Source: Myxococcaceae bacterium
GTDB lineage: Bacteria; Myxococcota; Myxococcia; Myxococcales; Myxococcaceae
Length of the DNA stretch: 13,940 nt
Direction: 5' to 3'
Assembly: GCA_018262385.1 (NCBI GenBank)
Contig: JAGSPQ010000053.1
Coordinates: 1-13,940 of the forward strand
This document shows, piece by piece, positions 841 to 12,828 of the stretch. How positions within the stretch are numbered: the first letter of the stretch is position 1; the number at the start of each line of letters is the position of its first letter. A model generated the notes under the pieces. It was not told the origin of the DNA. It did not search any database and saw only the letters and a program-made list of their open reading frames with translations. Position numbers and translations under genes: made by a program.

Positions 841-3800
841 CTACTTCGGAACCTTGTGGCACATGATGCAGGTGCTCGGGTTCGTCATCTTGCTCTCGGT
901 GTGCACGAACCTCCACGCGGTGAGGTAGGCCGCGCCGGTCTGCACCAGCCCGTTGCCGGCCGGGACCACGTGACACTGGTAGCAGTTCACCGGGTAGAAG
1001 TGCTTCGCGTAGGTCACGGTGATCGTGTTCCCCTTGTAGGTGGGGGTGACGGAGGTCAGGGTGAAGGGGCGCGTGTCGCCCGCGCCGGCTGCCTGGGTGG
1101 TGGCTCCATTCCAGGGCGTGCCGATCAGGTTGCTGCCCGTCTCGTGACAGGCCTTGCAGTTGGCGTTGATCAGCGTCGACTTGTGGTCGTAGCCGAAGGC
1201 CTGCTTCCCGCCCGCGTTGGTCGCGTGGCAGGCAGTGCACAGCTGGGTCCCGACGGTGGGGTGGGGAAGATTGGCGATCCCGGTCTGGGTGGTGGGAGTG
1301 GTGGCCGGCGGCGCCGGAATGGTGAACCCTCCGACCGGAATGAAGGCCGGCACTCCGCCGGTGGCGCCCTTCCAGTTGGCAGCGGCGGTGGTGCCGGTGC
1401 CGGGGAAGGAGTGACACGAGCTGCAGTCGGTGGTGCCCGAGGCGGCGGTGTACGCGCTGTGGCTGTGCGCGGTGAACACCGCGGTCGGCTTCACGTTCAG
1501 GTGACAGGTGCTGCACCGCGCGGTGGTGCCGTTGTTGATCAGCGGCGTGGCGGCGCTGAAGTTGGGATGGAACTTCGCCTGCTTCCACTCCTTGCCCGCG
1601 ATCGCCCCGCCGGCGACGCCCTTCTGGGTGTGGCAGGCCCCGCAGTCTCGGCTCGCGACGTTGAGCTCCGCGTGGTTGAGCTGATCCAGGGTCCCGGCCG
1701 GGACGCCGGTGCCCGCTACTCCCGCCGAGCTGACGTAGGTCGAGTTGGTCAGGCCGAGGGGCAGGTTGTTGTTGGTGCCGATCACCGTGCCGCCGCCGTT
1801 GGTGGTGCCGTGGCACTCGCGGCAGGTGGTGGGGTTGGTGACCGCGGTGTGGAACAGGCTGCCCTTGTTCCAGGCGCTCCCGGTCGTCTTCGCGTCGGCC
1901 TGGTGGCAGACCGCGCAGTCCTTCCCGACCACGAACGACGAGCCGTGGTTCATCCACTGCGGCCCGTTGGTGGCGGTGCCGCCCAGCGCCAGGGTGTAGA
2001 CGACGCTGCTCCGGGTCGAGGCGTTGGGGAGCGGATCCGAGATCGCGTGGCAGTCGACGCAGGCGGTCGGCTGGGTGGCGAGGCTGGGGTGGTACGCGCC
2101 CGTCCTCCACAGCGTGGCGGCGATCGGCGTGTTCGCGCCCTTCGCCAGCGCGGCGGCGTGGCAGGTCTGGCAGGTCTGGAAGGTGATCAGCGGCGAGCGG
2201 TGCCGCATGCTGAAGGTGGTCCCGGTGGTGACGTCTGCTTTGGGCGCGTCCGCCATCAGCGGGTAATGGCAGACATTGCAGTCGGCCGGCACCGCCGCGC
2301 CAAGGTTGGGGTGGAACTGGCCGTCGGTCCAGGTGTTGCCCGGGCTGTTGTGACAGACCGCGCACTCCACCTGGCTCACCGAGGTGACCGACACTCCGCC
2401 GATCATCGCCGCGGCGGTGAAGGTGGCGCTGTGATCCATCGGCTGCAGCGTCGAGGCGGCCTTCTCCACGATCCCCACCGGCCGCATCTGCGAGTGGCAG
2501 CTGGTGCAGTTGGCGGTGGGCTGGGGGAAGGGAACCACCGCTCCGCCGGGGGTGGCCGCGTAGGCGGTGAGCGCGGAGTGGTACTTGCCGTTCGAGTAGG
2601 CGGTGACGGTGCCGTTGGTGTGGGTGTGGCAGTGCCAGCACTTGGTGTAGTCGGGGCTGGCGGTCGGGCCGGCGTTCAGCGCGGCGGGCAGCACCGGCGA
2701 GGTGTGGAGCATCGCGTTGTAGAGCGTGGCGTTGATCGTGCTGGTGCTGGTGACGAGCGCGCCGGTTCGATTCAGCGTCGTCTCGTTCACCTTGATGAAC
2801 TGGGTCGCCGAGCTGACCAGCACCGAGCCGGGGTACAGCTGGCCACCCTTCCAGTCGCCGCCCGGCAGCGCATTGGTCGCCGGGTTGTTGAAGTTCAGGT
2901 AGGTGTTGGCGGTCACCGTCGCCTGGTGGCAGCCGAAGCAGTCGCCGGTGCCGTTGGCGGCGTGGTCGAAGCCGATCAGCGCGGCGACGGTGCCGGCGTC
3001 GGTGCCCGGCTGCAGATCCGGCCGCTGGGTGGTGTGGCAGCCGATGCAGGTGGTGGCCGCCACGGTCGTCGCCGCGTGGCTGAAGCTCCCCGCCGCCCAG
3101 TTCGGGTTGTTGCCCCAGGCGCCGGTGCCCGGGTTGTTGTGGCAGACCGCGCAGTCCTGGGCGTTGCCGTGGGTGATGCCGAGGGAGTTGGTGAGGTAGT
3201 CGAATGGCGAGCGGCGGAAGTTGGGGTTGGTCCAGCCGGTGGTGGTGGTCGGCCGCTCGGCGTCGTGGCAGGGCAGGCAGGTGCTGGGCGTCGCGCTGCC
3301 CACCGCGTGGAAGATGCCGCCCGCCCAGGAGGTGTTGGTCGCCGCGCTGGCCGCGTGGCAGGCGCCGCAGTCGCCCTGGGCCGAGGGGGCGCGGTGATCG
3401 AAGAGGATGTTCAGCGGCGGCACCGTCACCACCCCGGTGGCGCGCGAGTTGGCGTGGCAGTCGAGGCAGGAGCTGACCGCCGGCTTGCCCGCCGCCCGCA
3501 GCGAGGCGTGGAAGCCGGGGTCGTTGCCGCCGTCGCGGCCGGTGGTCCAGGTGGCCACCAACGTGTCCGACGGGCTGGAGTGGCAGACGCTGCAGTCGAA
3601 CGGCACTGCGCTGGCCGTCCCCGGGGCGCCGCCGTCCCACAGCACCGCTTCGTGGCGCATCTCTCCCGTGGGAGGAGTGCGGGCCGGGCTGGTGGCGAGC
3701 GGCCCGACGAAGCCGGTGGGGAGGGTGGGCGCGTGGCAATCGGAGCAGACCGCCGGCTGCGCCAGCTTCAGGTTGGCCAGCGAGGAGTGGAAGTTGCCGG

Positions 3801-4545
3801 GGAAGTAGTCGCCGGTGGACGCCGTCGGGTGACAGTTTTCGCAGGCCGAGAGGAAGGCCGAAGGGATCGCGGTGGTCCCGTGGCTCATCGGCATCGAGAG
3901 CGTCTGGGTCAGGGGCGTGACCCGGATGATCGAAGTGCCCGCCCAGGTGGGGAGCAGGCTGTTGACCACGATGTCGTGGGCCGGATCCGAGGCGTTGTCC
4001 GGCGCCATCCCTGCGTCGAGCCAGGTGGTCTTCACGTGACAGGCGCCGCAGTCGGCCGCGCCCCTCGAGGGGTGGGTGAACCCGGCCTTCGGCAGCGCGG
4101 CGAACGGAGTCTCGACGTCGTGACAGGCGGCGCACTTGTCGTCGATGCCGGCGTGGTCGTAGGGAACTTTTGCTCCCGCCGGGTGGCAGCTGAGGCAGCC
4201 CAGCAGCACCCCGCCGTCGCTCGGCCGCTCGCTGGCGTACGAGTAGAGCTTCTCGCTCAGGTGGAGCCGGTCGTTGATCGACTGCTCGTGCATGTGACAG
4301 CCGAGGCAGCTGAACTGGGCGAAGGTTCCGGCATCCGGCTCGTTGTGGCAGCCCTCGCAGGCGATCGGCCCGTCGGACTGCAGCACCGTGCGGCCCAGCT
4401 CGTGGGCGGTGCCCGCGGCAATCGGAAACCAGGTGTGGTTCTCGGCGGTGATCGGCACCGGCGGCTTGTAGGTGGACGGAGACGAGCAGCCGCCGAGCGC
4501 GATCAACGCCCCGAGCGCCCAACGAGCAGCAGTGCAGTTCGACAT
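841..4545 (-). CDS. Outer-membrane-type lipoprotein multihaem c-type cytochrome, 29 CxxCH motifs
   Basis: This encodes 1234 residues from ATG 4545-4543, with a purine-rich ribosome binding site (AGAGGGA) about 6 bases upstream. The N-terminus is a lipoprotein signal with lipobox LGGC at 17-20. Residue +2 is Ser rather than Asp, which fits export to the outer membrane. I count 29 CxxCH haem-attachment motifs, from CEGCH at 63-67 to CIMCH at 1226-1230, and no other recognisable domain. Much of the chain repeats a loose two-haem unit: DCxxCHxxPG..W..G.FH......CxxCH...RP......F.H. Haem spacing is mostly 20-45 residues; a haem-poor stretch of about 95 residues lies between motifs 14 and 15 and another of about 64 between 5 and 6. 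Such proteins serve extracellular or envelope electron transfer in metal-reducing bacteria. Here it is probably a surface haem chain or terminal reductase working with the conduit encoded at 6534-12828, but it is a separate transcription unit, divergent from the kinase gene. Its substrate cannot be assigned. Confidence 0.93.
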   Translation of the reverse strand: MSNCTAARWALGALIALGGCSSPSTYKPPVPITAENHTWFPIAAGTAHELGRTVLQSDGPIACEGCHNEPDAGTFAQFSCLGCHMHEQSINDRLHLSEKLYSYASERPSDGGVLLGCLSCHPAGAKVPYDHAGIDDKCAACHDVETPFAALPKAGFTHPSRGAADCGACHVKTTWLDAGMAPDNASDPAHDIVVNSLLPTWAGTSIIRVTPLTQTLSMPMSHGTTAIPSAFLSACENCHPTASTGDYFPGNFHSSLANLKLAQPAVCSDCHAPTLPTGFVGPLATSPARTPPTGEMRHEAVLWDGGAPGTASAVPFDCSVCHSSPSDTLVATWTTGRDGGNDPGFHASLRAAGKPAVSSCLDCHANSRATGVVTVPPLNILFDHRAPSAQGDCGACHAASAATNTSWAGGIFHAVGSATPSTCLPCHDAERPTTTTGWTNPNFRRSPFDYLTNSLGITHGNAQDCAVCHNNPGTGAWGNNPNWAAGSFSHAATTVAATTCIGCHTTQRPDLQPGTDAGTVAALIGFDHAANGTGDCFGCHQATVTANTYLNFNNPATNALPGGDWKGGQLYPGSVLVSSATQFIKVNETTLNRTGALVTSTSTINATLYNAMLHTSPVLPAALNAGPTASPDYTKCWHCHTHTNGTVTAYSNGKYHSALTAYAATPGGAVVPFPQPTANCTSCHSQMRPVGIVEKAASTLQPMDHSATFTAAAMIGGVSVTSVSQVECAVCHNSPGNTWTDGQFHPNLGAAVPADCNVCHYPLMADAPKADVTTGTTFSMRHRSPLITFQTCQTCHAAALAKGANTPIAATLWRTGAYHPSLATQPTACVDCHAISDPLPNASTRSSVVYTLALGGTATNGPQWMNHGSSFVVGKDCAVCHQADAKTTGSAWNKGSLFHTAVTNPTTCRECHGTTNGGGTVIGTNNNLPLGLTNSTYVSSAGVAGTGVPAGTLDQLNHAELNVASRDCGACHTQKGVAGGAIAGKEWKQAKFHPNFSAATPLINNGTTARCSTCHLNVKPTAVFTAHSHSAYTAASGTTDCSSCHSFPGTGTTAAANWKGATGGVPAFIPVGGFTIPAPPATTPTTQTGIANLPHPTVGTQLCTACHATNAGGKQAFGYDHKSTLINANCKACHETGSNLIGTPWNGATTQAAGAGDTRPFTLTSVTPTYKGNTITVTYAKHFYPVNCYQCHVVPAGNGLVQTGAAYLTAWRFVHTESKMTNPSTCIMCHKVPK

Positions 4546-4566
4546 GCGAGTCCCTCTTTCCCCTTT

Positions 4567-4588
4567 CCCCTGAGAGTCTCCTCAGGGG
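4567..4588. promoter_or_regulatory. Perfect 8-bp inverted repeat in the divergent intergenic region
   Basis: CCCCTGAG (4567-4574) and CTCAGGGG (4581-4588) are exact inverted copies separated by 6 bases (AGTCTC). The element lies 22 bases upstream of the 29-haem cytochrome start, just above its purine-rich ribosome binding site, and about 100 bases from the kinase start. It could be a protein operator or, if transcribed on the minus strand, a hairpin in the cytochrome mRNA leader that controls stability or ribosome access. No T-run follows it, so it is not a typical intrinsic terminator. The rest of the 143-bp gap (4546-4688) contains no gene and no convincing sigma-70 promoter that I can identify. 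Confidence 0.4.
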
Positions 4589-4675
4589 CCCATCGAGCCG
4601 CAGGCTGGGGTCCGAACGCCGGCCGGCAGCGGCTCGCGGGACAATACGTCGCCGACCTCGAGGCGGGCAGTGGCC

Positions 4676-4681
4676 CATACT
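4676..4681 (+). promoter_or_regulatory. Possible -10 element (CATACT) giving a leaderless kinase transcript
   Basis: CATACT ends 7 bases before the kinase ATG at 4689. No Shine-Dalgarno sequence precedes that ATG, so a transcript starting at or next to the ATG would explain its absence. I see no good -35 hexamer at the correct distance (CGACCT is poor), so this is a weak proposal. Confidence 0.2.
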
Positions 4682-4688
4682 CATTCTC

Positions 4689-6527
4689 ATGGCTGACCCA
4701 CACGTACCCACCGTTGTGAATCCGACCCACCTGATGGATCCCACGGTGAGCTCGGGCCGAAGCCAGGCGGTCGACCTCGGCGCCACCACCCTCGCCGAGC
4801 CGCCGGGCAAAGAGCGGTACGAGCAGCTCAAGCTGCTCGGCGCGGGCGGGATGGGCGACGTCCACCTGTGCCGCGACGGGCGGATTGGCCGCGAGGTCGC
4901 CCGCAAGGTGATGCGGCCCGAGGCGGCCGCGTACGCCGACGGCCGGGACCGCTTCCTGCGCGAGGCGCGGGTCCAGGGGCAGCTCGAGCACCCCGCGGTG
5001 GTGCCGGTGTACGAGCTGGGCGAAGAGGCCGGCGCGCCGTTCTTCACCATGAAGCGGGTGCGGGGGCAGACGCTGGGCCAGCTGCTCAACGCGCTGGCGG
5101 AAGGCGATCCGCAGACCCGGCGCCAGTACACCCGGCGGCGCCTGCTCACCGCCTTCAGCCAGCTGTGCGTGGCGATCGACTTCGCCCACAGCCGCGGGGT
5201 GCTGCATCGGGACCTCAAGCCCGAGAACGTGATGCTCGGCGACTTCGGCGAAGTCCACGTGCTCGACTGGGGACTGGCCCGGGTGGCCGGGGTCGAGGAT
5301 TCCCCGGGCCTGCCTGCGCTGAGCGCCGGTGCGCCGGGAGCGACCCAGGCCGGCACGATGATGGGCACCCCCGGCTACATGGCGCCCGAGCAGGCGGAAG
5401 GGAATCTGCCGCGGCTGGCGGGGTGGACCGACGTGTACGCGCTGGGGGCGATCCTGTTCGAGCTGCTCACCCTCGAGCGGCTTCATGATCAGCCGACCTC
5501 CGACGAGCGGGTGCTGAGCACCCTGGCCGGCCGCGAGGTCCACCCGATGCAGCGCTCGCCCGAGCGCGACGTGCCGGTCGAGCTCGACGCGCTGGTGGCC
5601 CGGGCCTGCGCCTTCGCGCCGGAGCAGCGGCCGAGCGCGCGCGAGCTGTCGGAGGAGATCGAGCGCTTCCTCGACGGCGATCGCGATCTGGAGCGCCGCC
5701 GCGAGCTGGCGAAGGCCTGCGTGGCGGCGGCGCAGACGGCGATGGGGCGCCCGTCCGGCCGGGCCGAGGCGATGCGCGAAGTGACCCGCGCGCTCGCGTT
5801 GGTCCCCGACGAGCCCGCCGGCTTGCGGATCCTCGGGCGGCTGCTGACCGAGGTTCCCGCCGAGCTGCCCCCGGCGGCCCGCTCCCAGATGGAAGCGGCC
5901 CAGGCCGCGGCGCGCGTCGGCGTCGTGGGAGTGGCGGCGTCGCGCGCGGCGACCTGGCTGGCGTTCGTGCCGCTGATCCTGTGGATGGGCGTTCGCGACT
6001 GGCGGCTGGCGCTCTTCGCGCTGGGCGCGCTCAGCCTCTCGTTCTTCGCCGCGTTCTACTTCCGCCTGCGCGGCGAGGGCCTCACCAACCTCGCCAGCCT
6101 CGGCCTGCTGCTGCTCAGCTCGTTCGCCCTCGCCGGGTTCGGCTTCGTGCTCAGCCCGTTCGTGCTCGTGCCGGCGCTCGCCGCCACCAACACGCTCTTC
6201 TTCGCCACCTACCTCTCTTCGAAGGTTCGCCCGCTGGCGGCGCTCTCGGGAGTGGTGGCGGTGCTGGCGCCGGTGGGGCTGGAGGCGCTGGGGGTGCTGC
6301 CGCGCTCGTTCGCCTTCGCCGACGGACACCTGGAGCTGCTGCCGCGGATGACTGCGCTCGCGCCCGGGCCGACGCTGGTGCTGCTGCTGGCGGGGAGCGT
6401 GGCGCTGGTGGTGACTCCGGCGGTGCTGGTCGGCCGGCTGCGCGACTCGCTCGAGGCGGCCGAGAAGAAGCTCTTCCTCCAGGCCTGGCACCTCAACGCG
6501 CTCGCGCCGAGCGAGCTCGAGCGGTGA
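4689..6527 (+). CDS. Membrane-bound eukaryote-like Ser/Thr protein kinase with six-helix C-terminal membrane domain
   Basis: This encodes 612 residues with a full kinase domain at about 44-330. Visible elements are the glycine loop GAGGMG (51-56), catalytic Lys73 in VARKVM, Glu92 in the alpha-C helix (FLREARV), the catalytic loop HRDLKPEN (173-180), a DWG metal-binding motif instead of DFG (193-195), and GTPGYMAPE (226-234) after an Ala/Gly-rich activation segment. The key catalytic residues are all present, so it should be active. After a helical linker (about 335-415) come about six hydrophobic helices (approximately 421-436, 440-457, 468-485, 489-508, 516-536, 561-583) and a short charged tail, instead of the single helix and PASTA or sensor domain of classical PknB. 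The ATG at 4689 lacks a Shine-Dalgarno; no better start is visible. It is divergent from the 29-haem cytochrome gene and convergent with the barrel gene, so it may regulate the electron-transfer system, but its target is unknown. Confidence 0.92.
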   Translation: MADPHVPTVVNPTHLMDPTVSSGRSQAVDLGATTLAEPPGKERYEQLKLLGAGGMGDVHLCRDGRIGREVARKVMRPEAAAYADGRDRFLREARVQGQLEHPAVVPVYELGEEAGAPFFTMKRVRGQTLGQLLNALAEGDPQTRRQYTRRRLLTAFSQLCVAIDFAHSRGVLHRDLKPENVMLGDFGEVHVLDWGLARVAGVEDSPGLPALSAGAPGATQAGTMMGTPGYMAPEQAEGNLPRLAGWTDVYALGAILFELLTLERLHDQPTSDERVLSTLAGREVHPMQRSPERDVPVELDALVARACAFAPEQRPSARELSEEIERFLDGDRDLERRRELAKACVAAAQTAMGRPSGRAEAMREVTRALALVPDEPAGLRILGRLLTEVPAELPPAARSQMEAAQAAARVGVVGVAASRAATWLAFVPLILWMGVRDWRLALFALGALSLSFFAAFYFRLRGEGLTNLASLGLLLLSSFALAGFGFVLSPFVLVPALAATNTLFFATYLSSKVRPLAALSGVVAVLAPVGLEALGVLPRSFAFADGHLELLPRMTALAPGPTLVLLLAGSVALVVTPAVLVGRLRDSLEAAEKKLFLQAWHLNALAPSELER

Positions 6528-6533
6528 GCGGCC

Positions 6534-8228
6534 CTACAGCTGTCCGCCGAGCTGGCCGAGGAAGGTGCCGGAGATCGGCTCGCCCCCGGTGTAGGTCGGC
6601 ACGCCCACCAGCCCCCGGCCCATCCCGCTGATCCGGATCCACATCCAGCGGTTGATCGTCAGGTCGACGACCAGCGACGCGCCGAGCTCGTGGCTGGCGA
6701 GGCCCTCGTTTCCGGTCACCCGCTGCTCCTGAAACCAGCTGCCGCGGGCGAGGATCCGCAGCCGATTGACCGGGATCACCGTCGCCTGCAGCCAGGCGGT
6801 GCGGCCGCGCAGCCAGCCGATCTCTTCCTGGTAGCTGACGGTGAGCGAGCCCGCCTGGCCGAACAGCTGGGGGAAGGTCAGCTCGGGGCCGAAGCGGGTC
6901 TGGTTCAGCCGGCTGGTGAAGTCGATCGCGGTGCCGGCCAGGGCGCCGATCCACAGCCCGGGCGATAGCTCGAGGGTGACGCCGAGATCGGCGTGGAGCG
7001 CGCGCTGGCCGGGGAGGGTGGCGCCCACCTCGAGGGTGTCGCTGGCGCTGGTGCCCCGGTAGCGGCCCGCGGCGTAGACCCGCAGCACCTCCGCCGGCCG
7101 CCAGCCGAAGTCGAGCCGCGCCCCGTCGACCAGGCCGAGCGCCTGGGCGCTGAGCGCTCCCAGCTCGACCTGCAGGTGGGCGTCGAAGCTGCGGGTCAGC
7201 CAGGCGTGCACCGCCACGCCGATCTCCAACCGCCCCGGCACCAGCGCGCGCACCGCGTAGCCCGCGTGCGCCTCGAGCTGCAGCAGCGAGGCGCGCGGGC
7301 CTTTGCCCGACTCGAGCCGCGCCATCACGAAGCCGCCCACCGTCCACCGCCGGCTCGAGACCCCCAGCGAGACCGGGTCGGGCAGCATCCCTCCGTAGGC
7401 GCCGACCTGCACGCTCTCGTCGCGGTTGCGCCAGCCGGCCTGCGCGCCGTCGACCATCAGCAGCCCCGGGGTGTACCGGGTCCAGGTGCGGCCCAGCCGG
7501 GCGGTCAGCGGCAGCTGGGGCGAGTGGTACGACAGCTCGAGCTGGCGAACGAGCACCACCGGGCTGCCGCGCAGCGGCGACTGGAAGCCGGCCGGGCGCT
7601 GGCTGAAGTTGAGCACGGTGAGATCCGCCGAGCCGTGGATCCCGCGCCAGATTGGAATGTCGTAGGCGCCCAGGTCGATCCGCTGGGTGTGGTACGGCCC
7701 TTCGGGCGAGGCGAGGTTGAGCCAGGTGGTGTGCGAGACGGCGATCGACGCCAGCCGGGTTCCCCGGCCGAGCAGCCCGCCGCTGGCCCCGGCGAAGTCG
7801 ACCAGCGGCACCTCTTCGGCTTCGACCTTCTGCCTGCGCGCCTCCAGCTCGGCCGGATCCGCGGGCGTCGGCGGAGCGGCCGGCGGCTTCGGCAGCGCTC
7901 GCACCACCGCGACTCGATCTCCCACCTGCAGGCCCTGGACGTTGCAGATCGACCACTTCTCCGACGCCGCGCTCACCGTGCAGCGCCCGACCAGCCGTCC
8001 GCCGCGGGTCACCACCAGCCCGCTGCCCACCGCGACCCCGTCGATCGTGCCGCGATTGAGGTAGGCGGTGGTGGCGGTGGTGAAGGTGACCTGGCCCGGC
8101 CCCTCGCTGGGCAGGGTGGCCGGCGCCCGCGTCCGCTTGGCGCGGACCGCCTTCTTCGGCCTGGCGAGCGCCGCTCCGCCGAGCAGCAGCGCGATCAGCA
8201 GCCACACCCGCGCGCGCAGGGGGCTCAT
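6534..8228 (-). CDS. Predicted outer-membrane beta-barrel of a porin-cytochrome conduit (MtrB-like role)
   Basis: This encodes 564 residues from ATG 8228-8226, which overlaps the stop of the decahaem cytochrome gene as ATGA; an AGAGG ribosome binding site lies 9-10 bases upstream. Residues 1-23 form a signal peptide ending ALA. Residues about 45-110 form a small beta-rich, possibly SH3-like region (LNRGTIDGVAVGSGLVV ... GLQVGDRVAVVR) with two cysteines (83, 95) that could form a disulphide. A Pro-rich and charged linker (113-140) follows. From about 145 to the end the sequence alternates short amphipathic strands and turns, rich in Gly, Trp, Tyr and Arg, as in outer-membrane barrels. No haem motif is present. 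Position directly after a decahaem cytochrome gene suggests the barrel sheathes that cytochrome, as MtrB does MtrA. It is shorter than Shewanella MtrB (about 700 residues) and lacks MtrB's N-terminal CxxC. The assignment rests on context and strand pattern; no close family is recognised. Confidence 0.72.
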   Translation of the reverse strand: MSPLRARVWLLIALLLGGAALARPKKAVRAKRTRAPATLPSEGPGQVTFTTATTAYLNRGTIDGVAVGSGLVVTRGGRLVGRCTVSAASEKWSICNVQGLQVGDRVAVVRALPKPPAAPPTPADPAELEARRQKVEAEEVPLVDFAGASGGLLGRGTRLASIAVSHTTWLNLASPEGPYHTQRIDLGAYDIPIWRGIHGSADLTVLNFSQRPAGFQSPLRGSPVVLVRQLELSYHSPQLPLTARLGRTWTRYTPGLLMVDGAQAGWRNRDESVQVGAYGGMLPDPVSLGVSSRRWTVGGFVMARLESGKGPRASLLQLEAHAGYAVRALVPGRLEIGVAVHAWLTRSFDAHLQVELGALSAQALGLVDGARLDFGWRPAEVLRVYAAGRYRGTSASDTLEVGATLPGQRALHADLGVTLELSPGLWIGALAGTAIDFTSRLNQTRFGPELTFPQLFGQAGSLTVSYQEEIGWLRGRTAWLQATVIPVNRLRILARGSWFQEQRVTGNEGLASHELGASLVVDLTINRWMWIRISGMGRGLVGVPTYTGGEPISGTFLGQLGGQL

Positions 8229-9151
8229 CGGGTGCCGACCTCTTTGTGGCAGGCGTAGCACTTGAGATCCTGGAAGGCGTACCCGGGCACCGGGATCGCG
8301 ACCTGGGGCACGGAGTGAATCAGGTCGGTCTCCGGGCGGAGGTGGCACCGGGTGCACTTCGCCGTCCGGGTGGTGCACGAGCCGGGGGTGGTGGGCGCAG
8401 AGAGCGACTCGTGGCAACCGGCGCAGGGCGTCGCCGCGTGCGAGCCGCTGGAGATGGTGTAGCAGGCGTCGTGGCCGGGGAAGATCCCCGGCTTGAACCG
8501 GAACGCGTTGTGGCAGTTGCGGCAGCTGCCGGTGAAGCCGAGCGCGAAGTGGTTGACCTCGGCGGTCCGGGTGCGCTCGAGGTCCTGCTGGTGGCAGGCG
8601 CTGCACTCGACCGCCGGGCGGGAGAAGCGGCGGGCGCTCGCCTCGGCGTGGCACTCCAGGCACGGGAGGTTGGCGTGCGCGCCCACCAGCGGGAAGGCGG
8701 TGCGCCGGTGGGCGTCGGCGTCGAACTTCGAAGCCCAGGAGGCGGTGTCGTGGCAGCCCTCGCAGCGGGCGCCGAGATCTCCGGCGTGGACGTCGCGGTG
8801 GCAGCCGTTGCAGCTGAGCGGCACCGGCCTGTCGAAGCTGTCCGTGTGGCAGCCCTTGCACGAAGTCGAGCGGTGGACGCCGGTCAGCGGGAAGCCGGTG
8901 CGATCGTGGTTGAACTTCACCTCGGTCCACGCGGCGGTGACGTGGCAGGCCGAGCAGGCGGTCTCCCCCGGAGCCAGGTGGCCCTTCGGTGCCGGCTTCA
9001 ACTCCACCGGCGCGGCGACCGGGGCGTCGGCCGGGGCCTCGCTGCCCGCATCCGGCGCCTTCACCGCCGCCGGGCGCGCCTTCCCCGGCCGGGGCGCCTT
9101 CGCCGGGGCCGCGCCGAGCAACAGCGCCGCCAGCAGCACCAGCGCCCTCAT
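8225..9151 (-). CDS. Periplasmic decahaem c-type cytochrome (MtrA-like role)
   Basis: This encodes 308 residues from ATG 9151-9149, overlapping the upstream stop as ATGA; AAGGGG sits about 8 bases upstream. Residues 1-19 (MRALVLLAALLLGAAPAKA) form a Sec signal, followed by an Ala/Pro-rich linker to about residue 58. Ten CxxCH motifs follow, the first at 66-70 and the last at 298-302. The FxH..T.FPL.G.H...CxxCH module of the 18-haem neighbour occurs at about 80-102 and 145-168, and in degenerate form at 226-247. Two extra cysteines (230, 259) are not in haem motifs. Length and haem number match MtrA-type periplasmic decahaem cytochromes (about 330 residues, 10 haems), and the next gene encodes a barrel, so the likely job is to carry electrons through the outer membrane inside that barrel. 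Sequence kinship to MtrA itself cannot be judged by eye. Confidence 0.9.
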   Translation of the reverse strand: MRALVLLAALLLGAAPAKAPRPGKARPAAVKAPDAGSEAPADAPVAAPVELKPAPKGHLAPGETACSACHVTAAWTEVKFNHDRTGFPLTGVHRSTSCKGCHTDSFDRPVPLSCNGCHRDVHAGDLGARCEGCHDTASWASKFDADAHRRTAFPLVGAHANLPCLECHAEASARRFSRPAVECSACHQQDLERTRTAEVNHFALGFTGSCRNCHNAFRFKPGIFPGHDACYTISSGSHAATPCAGCHESLSAPTTPGSCTTRTAKCTRCHLRPETDLIHSVPQVAIPVPGYAFQDLKCYACHKEVGTR

Positions 9152-10764
9152 GGCTCGAACCCCTTGAACGAGCCCTGGTGGAAGTCGGAGTGGCAGCTCT
9201 CACAGTTGGTCGGCAGCGGCCGGTAGCGCACCACCGCCACCTTCGCCGACAGCTGCAGCTTGCGGTGGCAGCTGGCGCACTCCACCTTGGCGTGCTTGCC
9301 GTCGAGCAGGTACTCGGTGAACGGCGGCTGGTGGACGAACTTCGTCTCCTTCCAGTCCTTCGTCGTGTGGCAGCGCTCGCAGTCGGTGGCGGTCTTCGGG
9401 GTGGTCGCGAACTGTCCGGCGTGCACGTCCTCGTGGCAGGCCGGGCAGGTCATCGGCAGCGGCCGGTACTGCACCGCGCGATCCGGGGCCGGCGCGCCGT
9501 GGCACTTCGCGCAGGGCGCCGCCGCGTGCTTGCCGGTGAGCGGGTAGCGGGTGTCGCGATCGTGATCGAGCTTCACCGCCTTGGGGATCTTGTCGGCCAG
9601 CGCGGGGGACTTCGGGTGACAGGCATTGCAGGCCACCACCCGGTGGGCGCCCTCGAGCGGGTAGGCGGTCTTCTGGTGCTGCTCGAAGGTGAAGCGCGGC
9701 GGCAGGAAGCGCTCGACGGTGTGGCAGCCCTCGCAGTCCGGCGCCCTGGCCCCCTTCGCGCGGGTCAACTGGCCGACGTGCGCATCGGCGTGACAGGCGC
9801 CGCACTGGTCGAACGCCAGCCCCTTGAACTTCGCCTTCTCGCCGGGGAAGGGGCCGTGGCAGGCGGTGCAGGCCACGTCGAGGTGCTCGCCCTTGAGCGG
9901 GAACTTCGTCTTGTCGTGAAAGGCGCGCTCGGCGGTCGCGTTGCGGATGATCTTCCAGCCCTCGACGGTGTGGCAGCTCTGGCAGCGGGCGCCGAACTTT
10001 CCGTCGTGGAAGTCCTTGTGACAGTCGAGGCACGCCTTGAACTCCAGCGGCTCGAACTTCATGAACGTCTCGGACACCGGAGCGGGGAAGACCCCCTTGG
10101 GCGTGGTCTCGTCCTTCAGCGCCGGGTGGCAGGCGTCACACTTCACCTTCTGGTGTCTGCCCCTCAGCGGGTAGTTGGTGTCGGCGTGGTTGAAGTCCGG
10201 CGCGGGCTTCCACTGCTTCGGGTCGTGACAGGCGCCGCAGTCGTCGCCTTCCTGCCCGCGGTGCTCGTCGAAGTGGCAGCCGCGGCACTCGCGCCCCACC
10301 CCGAGCATCGTGTTTCGCTCGGGGTTCTTCTCCAGCAGCTTGAGCACGACGGGGTTGAGGATCCGCTTCCGGGTGTGGCACTTGTCGCAGGCCTGTTCGG
10401 CGTGCTTCCCCTCGAGCGGCCAGGCGGCGCGGCTGTGATCGAAGCCCTTCTGCCCCTTCGACCCCCAGTCGATCATCGCGAAGCTCTTCCCGCGGTGATC
10501 AGGGTGGCACGACTCGCAGTTGCGCTTGTCGTTGGCGATGTGGCCGTGAAAGCCCAGCCCCTTCTCGACCCGCGGCTTCAGCTCGAGGTGGCAGCCGAGG
10601 CAGGTCGCCTGCGACAGCTGGCCGCCGGCGGGGTGGCACTGGGTGCACTGCGAGATCCCTTCGAGCCCCGCGTGGGGTTTGGCCAGATCTCCGGGAGAGA
10701 AGATGTCGGCGTGGGCGGCGGTCGCGACCAGGACGGTGAGGACCGCGACGTGCGTGCGGCTCAA
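9148..10764 (-). CDS. Periplasmic 18-haem c-type cytochrome built from repeated multi-haem modules
   Basis: This encodes 538 residues from the proposed TTG start at 10764-10762, giving a compact signal peptide (MSRTHVAVLTVLVATAAHA, cut before Asp20). A GTG four codons upstream (10776-10774) is an alternative; neither has a clear Shine-Dalgarno. The TTG overlaps the previous gene's stop as TTGA, which fits translational coupling. There are 18 CxxCH motifs from 40-44 to 521-525. A module FxH...YPL.GKH....CxxCH recurs six times (about 108-130, 191-213, 282-303, 361-383, 399-422, 476-500), generally followed by a CxxCHxDxHxGQ unit and a third haem motif. No other domain is seen. It is probably a periplasmic electron carrier between the inner-membrane reductase encoded upstream and the decahaem-barrel unit encoded downstream. 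The upstream reading frame stays open into the reductase gene only because of the frameshift there, and should not be taken as part of this protein. Confidence 0.9.
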   Translation of the reverse strand: MSRTHVAVLTVLVATAAHADIFSPGDLAKPHAGLEGISQCTQCHPAGGQLSQATCLGCHLELKPRVEKGLGFHGHIANDKRNCESCHPDHRGKSFAMIDWGSKGQKGFDHSRAAWPLEGKHAEQACDKCHTRKRILNPVVLKLLEKNPERNTMLGVGRECRGCHFDEHRGQEGDDCGACHDPKQWKPAPDFNHADTNYPLRGRHQKVKCDACHPALKDETTPKGVFPAPVSETFMKFEPLEFKACLDCHKDFHDGKFGARCQSCHTVEGWKIIRNATAERAFHDKTKFPLKGEHLDVACTACHGPFPGEKAKFKGLAFDQCGACHADAHVGQLTRAKGARAPDCEGCHTVERFLPPRFTFEQHQKTAYPLEGAHRVVACNACHPKSPALADKIPKAVKLDHDRDTRYPLTGKHAAAPCAKCHGAPAPDRAVQYRPLPMTCPACHEDVHAGQFATTPKTATDCERCHTTKDWKETKFVHQPPFTEYLLDGKHAKVECASCHRKLQLSAKVAVVRYRPLPTNCESCHSDFHQGSFKGFEP

Positions 10765-12828
10765 CTGAAGATCCACTTGTAGCCGAGGAAGAGCGAGACG
10801 CCGATGTGGGCGGTGATCATCACCACCAGCAGGATCGCCAGCACGACGTGGAACACCCGCCAGACCGAGAGCAGCCCGCGCAGCGCGGTGTAGAAGGTGA
10901 CCTGGGTCTGCAGCTGGCGAAGCTCCTCGAACGAGGCGCGAAACTCGCGGAAGTGCGCGCCCGAGGGGAACTCGACCGCGAGGGTGCCGAGGGCGACCCG
11001 ATCTCTGACGCTGCGAAACGGAGTCCCGAGCAGGTACTTGATCAGCGACTGTGACTCGGCCGGGACCACCGCGCGGTTGAGCACGTCCTTCGCCTTCGAT
11101 CGCCAGCGAGACGGTGGTGGCGGTCGCGAGCACGTTGTTCGAGCGGAAGGTGGCGTGGAAGGCGATCACCAGCGGGCTCATGAAGCCGACGAACTGGTGG
11201 AAGGTCAGCCAGTTTCGAATCGAGCCCTTCCCCTTCATCACCGACCACCGCTTGCGCAGCGCGTAGATGAAGTTCGACATCATGAAGGCGGTGGCCACGA
11301 TCCCCACCCCGTGGCCCCAGACCCCGGCCGGCTTGAGCGCGGCGTGGGCGGCGTCCTTCACCCGCTCGGCGGCGGACAGGGTGTAGTAGCTGTAGCCCTT
11401 GAGGGTGAGCAGGCCGACGATCGCCACTCCGATCACCAGCAGGATGGTGGCGAAGCGGCGCGAGGCGCGCTCGACCTCGTCCTTCTTCGCGCTGCCGCGG
11501 CGGGCCTTGGCGGCCAGCTCCTCGCCCTGCAGCCGCCGCATCCCGACCCCGCTCTTCTTCAGGAACTCGGTCGGCAGCTCGCCGCCGAGGCAGGCGATCA
11601 CGAAGTCGTTCGACATCTTGCCGACCTTCCCGTCGTACTCGAGCCGGACCCACTCCCGGTTGACCTCCTTCACCGTCGAGGGCATCAGCGCGCGGATCCG
11701 CCCGGCGGTGACCAGCTCCTGGAACTTCCGGCGGTTCGCCTCGCGCCCGCGGCCGAACTTGTCCTGCCGGTAGCTCAAGGTCACTTTGGCGTCGGTCTCT
11801 TCGGCGATCTGAATCGCCGCCTCGAGCGCCGAGTCGCTGCCGCCCACCACCAGCACCTTGGCGCCGTCGTACTGCGTGGCGTCGACCAGCCGGTAGGTGA
11901 CGTTGGGCAGCTCTTCCCCCGGGACGCCCAGGGTCCGCGGAGTGCCGCGCCGGCCGATCGCCAGCACCACCTTCTTCGCGCTGACGATTCCCTTGCTGGT
12001 GGTGACGAGGAACGCGCCGTCTTCGCCCGAGACGCCGGTGACGTTCACCCCTTCTTCGATCTTGAGGTCCGCCTTGGCGATCGCGTGCTTCCAGCCGGCG
12101 AGCAGCTGCTCCTTCGAGATCAGCTCCTTGCCGAAGCGGCCGACGAAGGGCAGCACCACCTTCTCGGTCATCACCACCTTCTGCCGGGGGTAGTGGGCGA
12201 TGGTGCCGCCGATCGTCTCCCGCTCGAGCACCCGGAAGCTGACCCCCGCCTTCTTCAGCCCCAGCGCGGTGGCCAGCCCCGACGGGCCGGAGCCGACGAT
12301 CGCCACGTCCACCTGGCCCTTGATCTTGCGCGAGCCGTGCAGCACTTCGCCCAGGTGGGTGGCCACCTGCAGCCCCTGGGTGAGCGCGTTCTTGATCAGC
12401 CCCATCCCGCCCAGCTCGCCGACGATGTGGAGGCCGGGGCGGTTGGTCTGGAAGTGCTCGTCGACCTCCGGCAGGTCGACTCCGCGCTCGCTGGTGCCGA
12501 ACACCAGGGTGATCGCGTTCACCGGGCACTCGTTGGCGCACTTGCCGTGGCCGATGCAGGCCGAGGCGTCGATCAGCGCCGCCTTGCCGTCGACCACGCC
12601 GAGGATGTCGCCCTCGGGGCAGACCTTGAGGCAGGAGAGGCTGCCCATGCAGGTGTCGAGGTTGACCACCGGGTGGAGGCTGGCGGGCTGGTTGCGGCCT
12701 TCGGCCTTCGCGACGGCGAGGGCGGCGGTGTCCGCGGCTTCGCGGCGCGCGCGGGACCGCACCCACAGCACCGCCGCGATCAGGCCGATCAGAAACAGCG
12801 CCGCCAGGGCAATCACTTCGAAGTTCAT
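10761..12828 (-). CDS. Inner-membrane ferredoxin / FAD-NAD(P) oxidoreductase / cytochrome b fusion, interrupted by a frameshift near 11097
   Basis: The start is ATG 12828-12826. Residues 3-23 form a membrane helix. Residues 56-105 form a two-cluster ferredoxin domain with altered motifs: Cys60-xx-Ser63-xx-Cys66-xxx-Cys70-Pro and Cys91-xx-His94-xx-Cys97-xxx-Cys101-Pro. Residues about 172-425 form a thioredoxin-reductase-like flavoprotein with an FAD motif (GSGPSG, 179-184) and an NAD(P) motif (GGSDSALEA, 329-337). Helices from about 459 begin a membrane domain with likely haem-b histidines (543, 558; 506 possible). After Ile577 (11100-11098) this frame turns to charged, Pro/Arg-rich nonsense; the expected continuation lies in another frame from about 11096 to the TGA at 10763-10761, including VWRVFHVVLAILL and TAHIGVSLFLGYKW with two more His. 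The intact form should oxidise NAD(P)H and pass electrons through haem b to the periplasmic cytochromes. It is probably inactive or truncated as written, unless the shift is a sequencing or assembly error. No ribosome binding site is obvious. Confidence 0.8.
11085..11100 (-). other. Frameshift/deletion junction inside the membrane cytochrome-b domain
   Basis: On the minus strand the reductase frame reads through LATATTVSLAI and then becomes EGEGRAQPRGG. The frame that resumes the protein reads SKAKDVLNRAVVPAE, displaced by +1. The helix begun before the junction is only about 11 residues long and is not completed in either frame, or in the third (Arg-rich), so more than a single-base indel seems to be involved. 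The junction contains a tandem CGAAGG-CGAAGG. No slippery heptamer for programmed frameshifting is visible. Confidence 0.65.

Follow-up and report, generated by a model that had tools for sequence, protein, structure and literature searches.

A PCC3-related operon of a Myxococcaceae bacterium as a candidate NAD(P)H-fed electron conduit

Contig JAGSPQ010000053.1 of a Myxococcaceae bacterium (assembly GCA_018262385.1; 5.57 Mb in 1,057 contigs, 79% complete) carries a four-gene operon for an iron-sulfur (Fe-S) flavoprotein fused to an inner-membrane domain, two multihaem cytochromes and an outer-membrane protein. The window analyzed here is the whole contig, 13,940 nucleotides (nt) in length. The operon is real and conserved, and is probably a trans-envelope electron conduit: one that starts at cytoplasmic pyridine nucleotide and leads outward through a haem chain and a barrel. 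An earlier note, made from this DNA alone, had proposed a distinct type of conduit. Wholly distinct it is not: in its inner-membrane and periplasmic halves it is related to PCC3, a group of porin-cytochrome gene clusters predicted in Proteobacteria (He et al. 2017, PMC5566968). The operon is therefore called here a PCC3 relative with a different outer half. Since the flavoprotein is fused to a domain of the type of the PCC3 inner-membrane protein (IMP), and co-occurs with it in Gammaproteobacteria, the fusion suggests what PCC3-type conduits probably couple to on the cytoplasmic side – NAD(P)H, and not quinones as published.

The four genes lie on the minus strand and overlap by four bases at every junction (TTGA at 10761-10764 between genes 1 and 2; ATGA at 9148-9151 between genes 2 and 3; ATGA at 8225-8228 between genes 3 and 4), as the earlier note had it. 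The cytochromes it described also hold up: gene 2 encodes 18 CXXCH motifs and gene 3 encodes 10, far above the two or fewer obtained on shuffling each protein 2,000 times. The note leaves out a lipoprotein-like cytochrome with 29 CXXCH (shuffled proteins gave no more than three), encoded on the same strand.

The case for the PCC3 kinship rests on gene 1 and gene 2. The PCC3 IMP is defined as a protein of ~300 amino acids with five transmembrane helices, two WX3HX13H motifs and SGXXG, and its periplasmic multihaem cytochrome has a median of 21 haems (PMC5566968). Scanning genome contigs with an alignment of the flavoprotein gave 542 relatives, the best 80 of which form our flavoprotein set. Both WX3HX13H motifs and [ST]GXXG are present in all 62 membrane domains that could be extracted from these 80 loci: by its motifs the gene 1 family thus matches the PCC3 IMP. 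Gene 2 matches the periplasmic cytochrome (18 haems in the window, 20 in most relatives), and is 34-37% identical, in a haem-by-haem alignment, to the 21-haem proteins of four PCC3-type loci (L113, L119, L133 and L152).

Within the best 80 loci the flavoprotein is fused to the membrane domain in 21, encoded by an adjacent gene on one strand in three (KSB1 loci L099 and L110, and L145 from an unassigned metagenome-assembled genome (MAG)) and split from it in 56. The fused loci carry titles of Myxococcota, Myxococcales, Deltaproteobacteria/Proteobacteria or similar; the split loci are mostly from Proteobacteria, with three titled Myxococcota or Myxococcales (L109, L117, L137). We considered the fusion as a clean marker of Myxococcota and rejected it, given these three and G182, a genome of the window's phylum in which one membrane domain is fused and another stands alone. 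Within the stretch fetched, 44 of the 56 split loci have a membrane protein of ~300 residues beside the flavoprotein and 40 have a cytochrome there, usually with 21 haems (18-24) if no contig end cuts it; 38 have both. Examined gene by gene, five of the loci (L103, L113, L119, L133, L152) continue with a second large cytochrome and a protein with a barrel-like C-terminus. Such a layout is the one that He et al. give for PCC3 (PMC5566968). For ten flavoprotein loci the stretch retrieved contains neither IMP nor cytochrome; each of the ten genomes has the IMP at another place.

Co-occurrence was examined in 369 genomes of Gammaproteobacteria, where flavoprotein and IMP are products of separate genes (flavoprotein at E<=1e-50, IMP at E<=1e-12). 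Both parts are present in 41 genomes, the flavoprotein alone in three (G307 and G511, as fragments; G387, full length), the IMP alone in one (G400, a weak match) and neither in 324 (Fisher P ~1e-49, uncorrected for ancestry); PCC3-type IMPs thus occur in 42 of the sample. Two flavoproteins occur in five genomes, and these same five, and no others, have two IMPs (the pair of fragments in G244 being counted as one gene). Of 49 flavoprotein places, 41 share a contig with an IMP and 36 lie no more than 2 kb from one. Our literature search found no paper linking PCC3 to a flavoprotein; Figure 6 and the tables of He et al. lay outside it and could show the gene. From these patterns we would venture, tentatively and at somewhat less than even confidence, a general statement: PCC3 clusters and their Myxococcota kin may be quinone-free NAD(P)H oxidoreductases that span the whole envelope, in which an obligate pair – a flavoprotein with a His-ligated Fe-S cluster and a two-haem-b membrane protein – connects the NAD(P)H pool of the cytoplasm to the surface by way of ~20-30 periplasmic haems.

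Two further observations concern PCC3-type loci. Immediately after the flavoprotein gene is a gene for a protein of 617-690 residues (L119 11209-13059, L103 11173-13242, L133 11272-13233), a possible further member of the system; that of L119 has Sel1 and ankyrin repeats. In L155, from an MAG of the alphaproteobacterium Novosphingobium, an open frame (1773-5918, minus strand) encodes 57 CXXCH.

The organization of gene 1 bears on the electron donor. Residues 1-440 comprise a double Fe-S (ferredoxin-like) domain followed by a flavin adenine dinucleotide (FAD) and NAD(P) domain of the thioredoxin-reductase/YpdA type, the flavin part matching Pyr_redox_3 and thioredoxin reductases. By these domain matches the inner-membrane donor does look like a pyridine-nucleotide flavoprotein, as had been claimed. 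With NCBIfam TIGR04018, the model for YpdA, it scores 160.3 bits against a cut-off of 339.9, and because C413 is the only cysteine beyond the Fe-S domain the flavoprotein is without a disulfide pair. The ligand patterns of the Fe-S domain read C..S..C...C and C..H..C...C, His replacing Cys in the second. This second motif is invariant, in 34/34 loci from the phylum and 80/80 of the flavoprotein set (some genomes are in both), and a His-ligated cluster is possible. The variable position of the first motif is Ser in all 34 phylum loci; in the flavoprotein set it is Ser in 23, Cys in 53 and another residue in four. Across L039-L158 the residues seen there are Ser, Thr, Val, Ala or Cys.

The remainder of gene 1 is the two-haem-b membrane domain. 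It had been read as part of a single ferredoxin/flavoprotein/haem-b protein: the first two of these domains are as described, but 12828-10761 holds two frames and not one, with 578 residues in the first (12828 to ~11093) and the last 110 in another (11093-10764). Both WX3HX13H motifs are retained, in different frames, and the part with GXXG is gone. From one conserved Trp codon to the other the domain spans 349 nt. The same interval is 489-501 nt long in 11 relatives, seven of which have 498, and 225 nt in one more, L076, whose loop is naturally short. The structural model of the domain is confident (pLDDT 90.6), and a fold search with it gave no significant relative. In a comparison with Pfam Ferric_reduct the first member fell below the cut-off, and 12 of 54 members gave E<=0.05.

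Gene 2 is likewise shorter than its relatives. It is without 56 residues (168 nt) and two haem sites after residue 396, a segment retained in each of the six closest relatives (62-67% identical). Eighteen haems as the norm of the family can be rejected: all six have 20, and the best 120 of 5,449 homologues include 99 with 20 haems and none with 18. No second copy turned up in the source genome, as far as the 79% complete assembly extends. We judge decay to be no likelier an explanation of the window copy than a short-read assembly error. Genes 2 and 3 are one protein of ~30 haems in six loci (L063, L065, L066, L071, L075, L076), which suggests that the separate products, too, may form one continuous haem chain. 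The gene 3 protein has no sequence match in the PDB at E<=0.1, and resembles the 33-haem protein of L119 through its haem repeats only.

That gene 4 encodes a barrel was set beforehand as a test. The AlphaFold model shows a barrel of 22 strands (residues 161-563), a count of strands and not a measure of diameter, preceded by an N-terminal beta domain (residues 45-96). This small domain (7941-8096, minus strand) has two invariant cysteines, C83 and C95, and no Pfam match above cut-off. The structures nearest to the barrel, by VIA, are substrate-specific Occ porins. No Pfam or NCBIfam match of the MtrB/PioB type was obtained at E<=0.1 (a family that Pfam includes), and BLASTP against one PCC3-type barrel, that of L119, gave 18.9 bits: no kinship is evident from this comparison. 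A search of genome contigs with the barrel as a single protein gave no match; a 99%-identical barrel entry is present on a contig of 2,131 bases (P0009).

At the outer end the cytochrome varies. We surveyed 36 loci in which gene 3 and the barrel were called on one strand. A gene for a cytochrome of 8-13 haems lies between them in 14, with a lipobox-like site in 11 of the 14, and a 29-haem gene is present in 12 others; within the stretches fetched the two never occur together, and ten loci have neither (four of these – L051, L066, L071 and L072 – are laid out atypically). Because the two kinds of gene alternate, the 29-haem protein is likely the surface end of the window conduit. In the nearest relatives (L040-L045, L048) the operon has a homologue with 29 CXXCH next to it. 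By eye the protein is rich in T, S, A, G and N. A gene for a Ser/Thr protein kinase with hydrophobic C-terminal stretches (4689-6527, plus strand) separates it from the operon.

Conservation was assessed in 195 genomes of the phylum, 48 of which (30 of 90 genera) have a relative of the barrel at E<=1e-3. Forty neighborhoods from Myxococcota genomes were picked by barrel match: in 30 the flavoprotein, 20-haem, 10-haem and barrel genes follow in the same order on one strand. The linkage anticipated for the four genes is therefore found in most stretches and lost in a minority. The barrel gene is displaced in L065, L066 and L071, and its match is weak or absent in L072, L074, L075 and L076; the flavoprotein match is absent from the stretch in L071, L072, L074 and L075. 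Contig ends interrupt the operon in L051 and L069, and in L064 order is kept but reading frames merge. Counted by genome, with the gene 1 membrane domain at E<=1e-20, barrel and domain are both present in 45 (four with weak barrel matches), the barrel alone in three (G011, G026, G037), the domain alone in none, and neither in 147 (eight with weak membrane-domain matches).

Features of the operon and its surroundings in the 13,940-nt window
Feature	Position	Strand
Gene 1: Fe-S flavoprotein fused to two-haem-b inner-membrane domain, frame broken	10761..12828	-
Double Fe-S (ferredoxin-like) domain, residues 60-101 of gene 1	12526..12651	-
FAD/NAD(P)-binding domain, thioredoxin-reductase/YpdA type, residues 174-431 of gene 1, without CXXC pair	11536..12309	-
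First WX3HX13H motif (predicted haem-b ligands), residues 540-558 of gene 1	11155..11211	-
Site of ~149-nt gap and frame change in membrane domain; [ST]GXXG motif lost	11063..11101	-
Second WX3HX13H motif, in other frame	10806..10862	-
Gene 2: periplasmic multihaem cytochrome, 18 CXXCH, TTG start	9148..10764	-
Point where 56-residue, two-haem segment is missing in frame from gene 2	9576..9577	-
Gene 3: decahaem cytochrome, signal-peptide-like start	8225..9151	-
Gene 4: outer-membrane protein, N-terminal beta domain and predicted 22-strand barrel	6534..8228	-
Probable fifth part: 29-haem cytochrome, lipobox-like LGGC	841..4545	-

On these computed observations – which genes are present, in what order and in which genomes together, their domain types, the paired WX3HX13H motifs, the modelled barrel and the PCC3 kinship – a route for electrons can be proposed. 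In gene 1, electrons from NAD(P)H would pass to FAD and on to the double Fe-S domain, then to two b haems in a membrane domain resembling that of NAD(P)H oxidases and ferric reductases, crossing the inner membrane on the way. The cytochrome of 20 haems (18 in the window copy) and the decahaem protein would together provide one periplasmic chain of ~30 haems c, the decahaem end being placed in or at the 22-strand barrel. A surface lipoprotein cytochrome – of 29 haems here, of 8-13 elsewhere – would then deliver electrons to acceptors outside. Both the donor and the outward direction are what we infer from the parts, and the same function would be expected of the window strain, in whose assembly gene 1 is interrupted.

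If electrons instead flowed inward, an extracellular donor (Fe(II) or a partner cell) would feed the chain and the flavoprotein would reduce NAD(P)+ or ferredoxin. This is unlikely on general bioenergetic grounds: outward flow from NAD(P)H is downhill, whereas inward flow from iron-level donors to NAD(P)+ is strongly uphill, and no ion-pumping part was recognized in the window. Uptake of electrons is nevertheless a function for which PCC3 has been discussed, as has iron oxidation (PMC5566968, PMC10734462); according to PMC12442390 the function of PCC3 has yet to be tested. Expression data in the literature point both ways: one PCC3 IMP gene is up in the iron-oxidizing Sideroxydans CL21 (PMC12442390), in keeping with inward flow, but both PCC3 clusters are lower in Fe(II)-grown than in thiosulfate-grown S. 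lithotrophicus ES-1 (PMC8788666), and one PCC3 extracellular cytochrome stands at 0 in an ES-1 proteome table (PMC12016527). A separate question is whether the b-haem domain exchanges electrons with quinones, leaving the flavoprotein as a side input or a sensor. He et al. model the IMP as quinone-linked, and liken its two-haem motif to quinone-reactive cytochromes b (PMC5566968). We doubt this for the present family: fusion in 21 of the best 80 loci and adjacency in three more indicate an obligate partner, as does the finding of both parts in 41 of the 45 Gammaproteobacteria genomes that have either.

The haem chain might also stop in the periplasm, serving a reductase or detoxification, with the barrel an ordinary solute porin that happens to share the operon. 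The likeness to Occ porins, the lack of an MtrB-type family match or of BLASTP kinship with the one PCC3-type barrel compared, and the loci in which the barrel is displaced, weak or absent are all consistent with such a porin. We regard it as improbable given that 45 of 48 barrel genomes also have the membrane domain, that a strong domain match without a barrel occurs in none of 195, and that in 14 loci a cytochrome gene, lipobox-like in 11, is inserted between the 10-haem and barrel genes. Whatever its relatives do, the window copy itself could be a decaying or mis-assembled cluster without function: nucleotides are missing from gene 1 (~149, with a change of frame) and gene 2 (168), and the genome, in its 1,057 contigs, yielded no second copy. 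But the reading frames of genes 3 and 4 and of the 29-haem gene are uninterrupted and as long as is usual in their families, and the barrel recurs, 99% identical, in the P0009 entry; we give this reading very little credence. The outward, NAD(P)H-fed conduit is the reading we prefer.

Quinol oxidases supply the known outer-membrane conduits compared here. If NAD(P)H were the direct source instead, bacteria would have another way to discharge (or acquire) electrons, one that does not depend on the respiratory chain; and a quinone-free, NAD(P)H-dependent PCC3 would mean that the published view (quinone-linked, iron oxidation) is wrong in both partner and direction. What is new is that the flavoprotein fusion and co-occurrence give PCC3 an inner partner where the published one was a guess: the question can now be tested by one enzyme assay and one gene deletion.

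Parts of gene 1 resemble two families of enzymes. The FAD and NAD(P) Rossmann domains of YpdA and of thioredoxin-reductase-like ferredoxin-NADP reductases align with residues 173-435, but the gene 1 score is far below the YpdA cut-off, the CXXC pair is absent, and Fe-S and membrane domains are fused to it. With NAD(P)H oxidases and ferric reductases (NOX/FRE) it shares two helices, each with an HX13H pair, beside a pyridine-nucleotide flavoprotein. Unlike these, gene 1 combines a double Fe-S domain with a flavin domain of thioredoxin-reductase type, where they have an FAD/NAD(P) module of the FNR type; its electrons would go to a periplasmic cytochrome rather than to O2 or Fe(III).

As to outer-membrane conduits, the operon appears to follow the plan of MtrCAB, MtoAB and PioAB – decahaem cytochrome plus barrel, with a surface cytochrome as an option – but on the family models tested it would fall outside the group. 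The pairing of the decahaem and barrel proteins as kin of MtrAB is thus not upheld: gene 3 scores 15.3 bits with TIGR03508 (DmsE/MtrA type), far under the cut-off of 192.2, and the barrel matches no family. Its inner-membrane module is an Fe-S flavoprotein where that of MtrCAB is CymA; a scan of window proteins gave no NapC/NirT-type (CymA) match, a search for CymA not having extended to the remainder of the genome. OmbB-OmaB-OmcB of Geobacter (Pcc) has the same plan of barrel, periplasmic and surface cytochromes, as far as plans and not sequences are compared; OmbB has ~20 strands. For Anaeromyxobacter, Shi et al. 2014 (PMC4245776) describe two-gene pcc clusters whose cytochrome, listed jointly with that of Kuenenia, has 12-14 haems in 338-344 residues. 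Five genes make up each of the loci found here in the same genus (L067, L068, L073), and the cytochromes have 20, 10 and 8-9 haems. Identity with those clusters was rejected on gene number and haem counts, by description and not by sequence.

PCC3 is the closest relative by its inner half. It differs in that most Myxococcota loci fuse flavoprotein and IMP, and in that the published model is quinone-based, with the flavoprotein unmentioned in the text available (PMC5566968). The outer halves also differ: the operon's barrel is predicted with 22 strands, has a beta domain at its N-terminus and shows no kinship by BLASTP with that of L119, and where PCC3 has one extracellular cytochrome, the operon has a decahaem protein as a separate product and, varying between loci, one or another presumed surface lipoprotein. 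In common are a homologous two-haem-b IMP domain with two WX3HX13H motifs and [ST]GXXG, a homologous periplasmic cytochrome of ~20 haems, a plan that includes an outer-membrane barrel and a further large cytochrome and, in the genomes sampled, the same family of flavoprotein.

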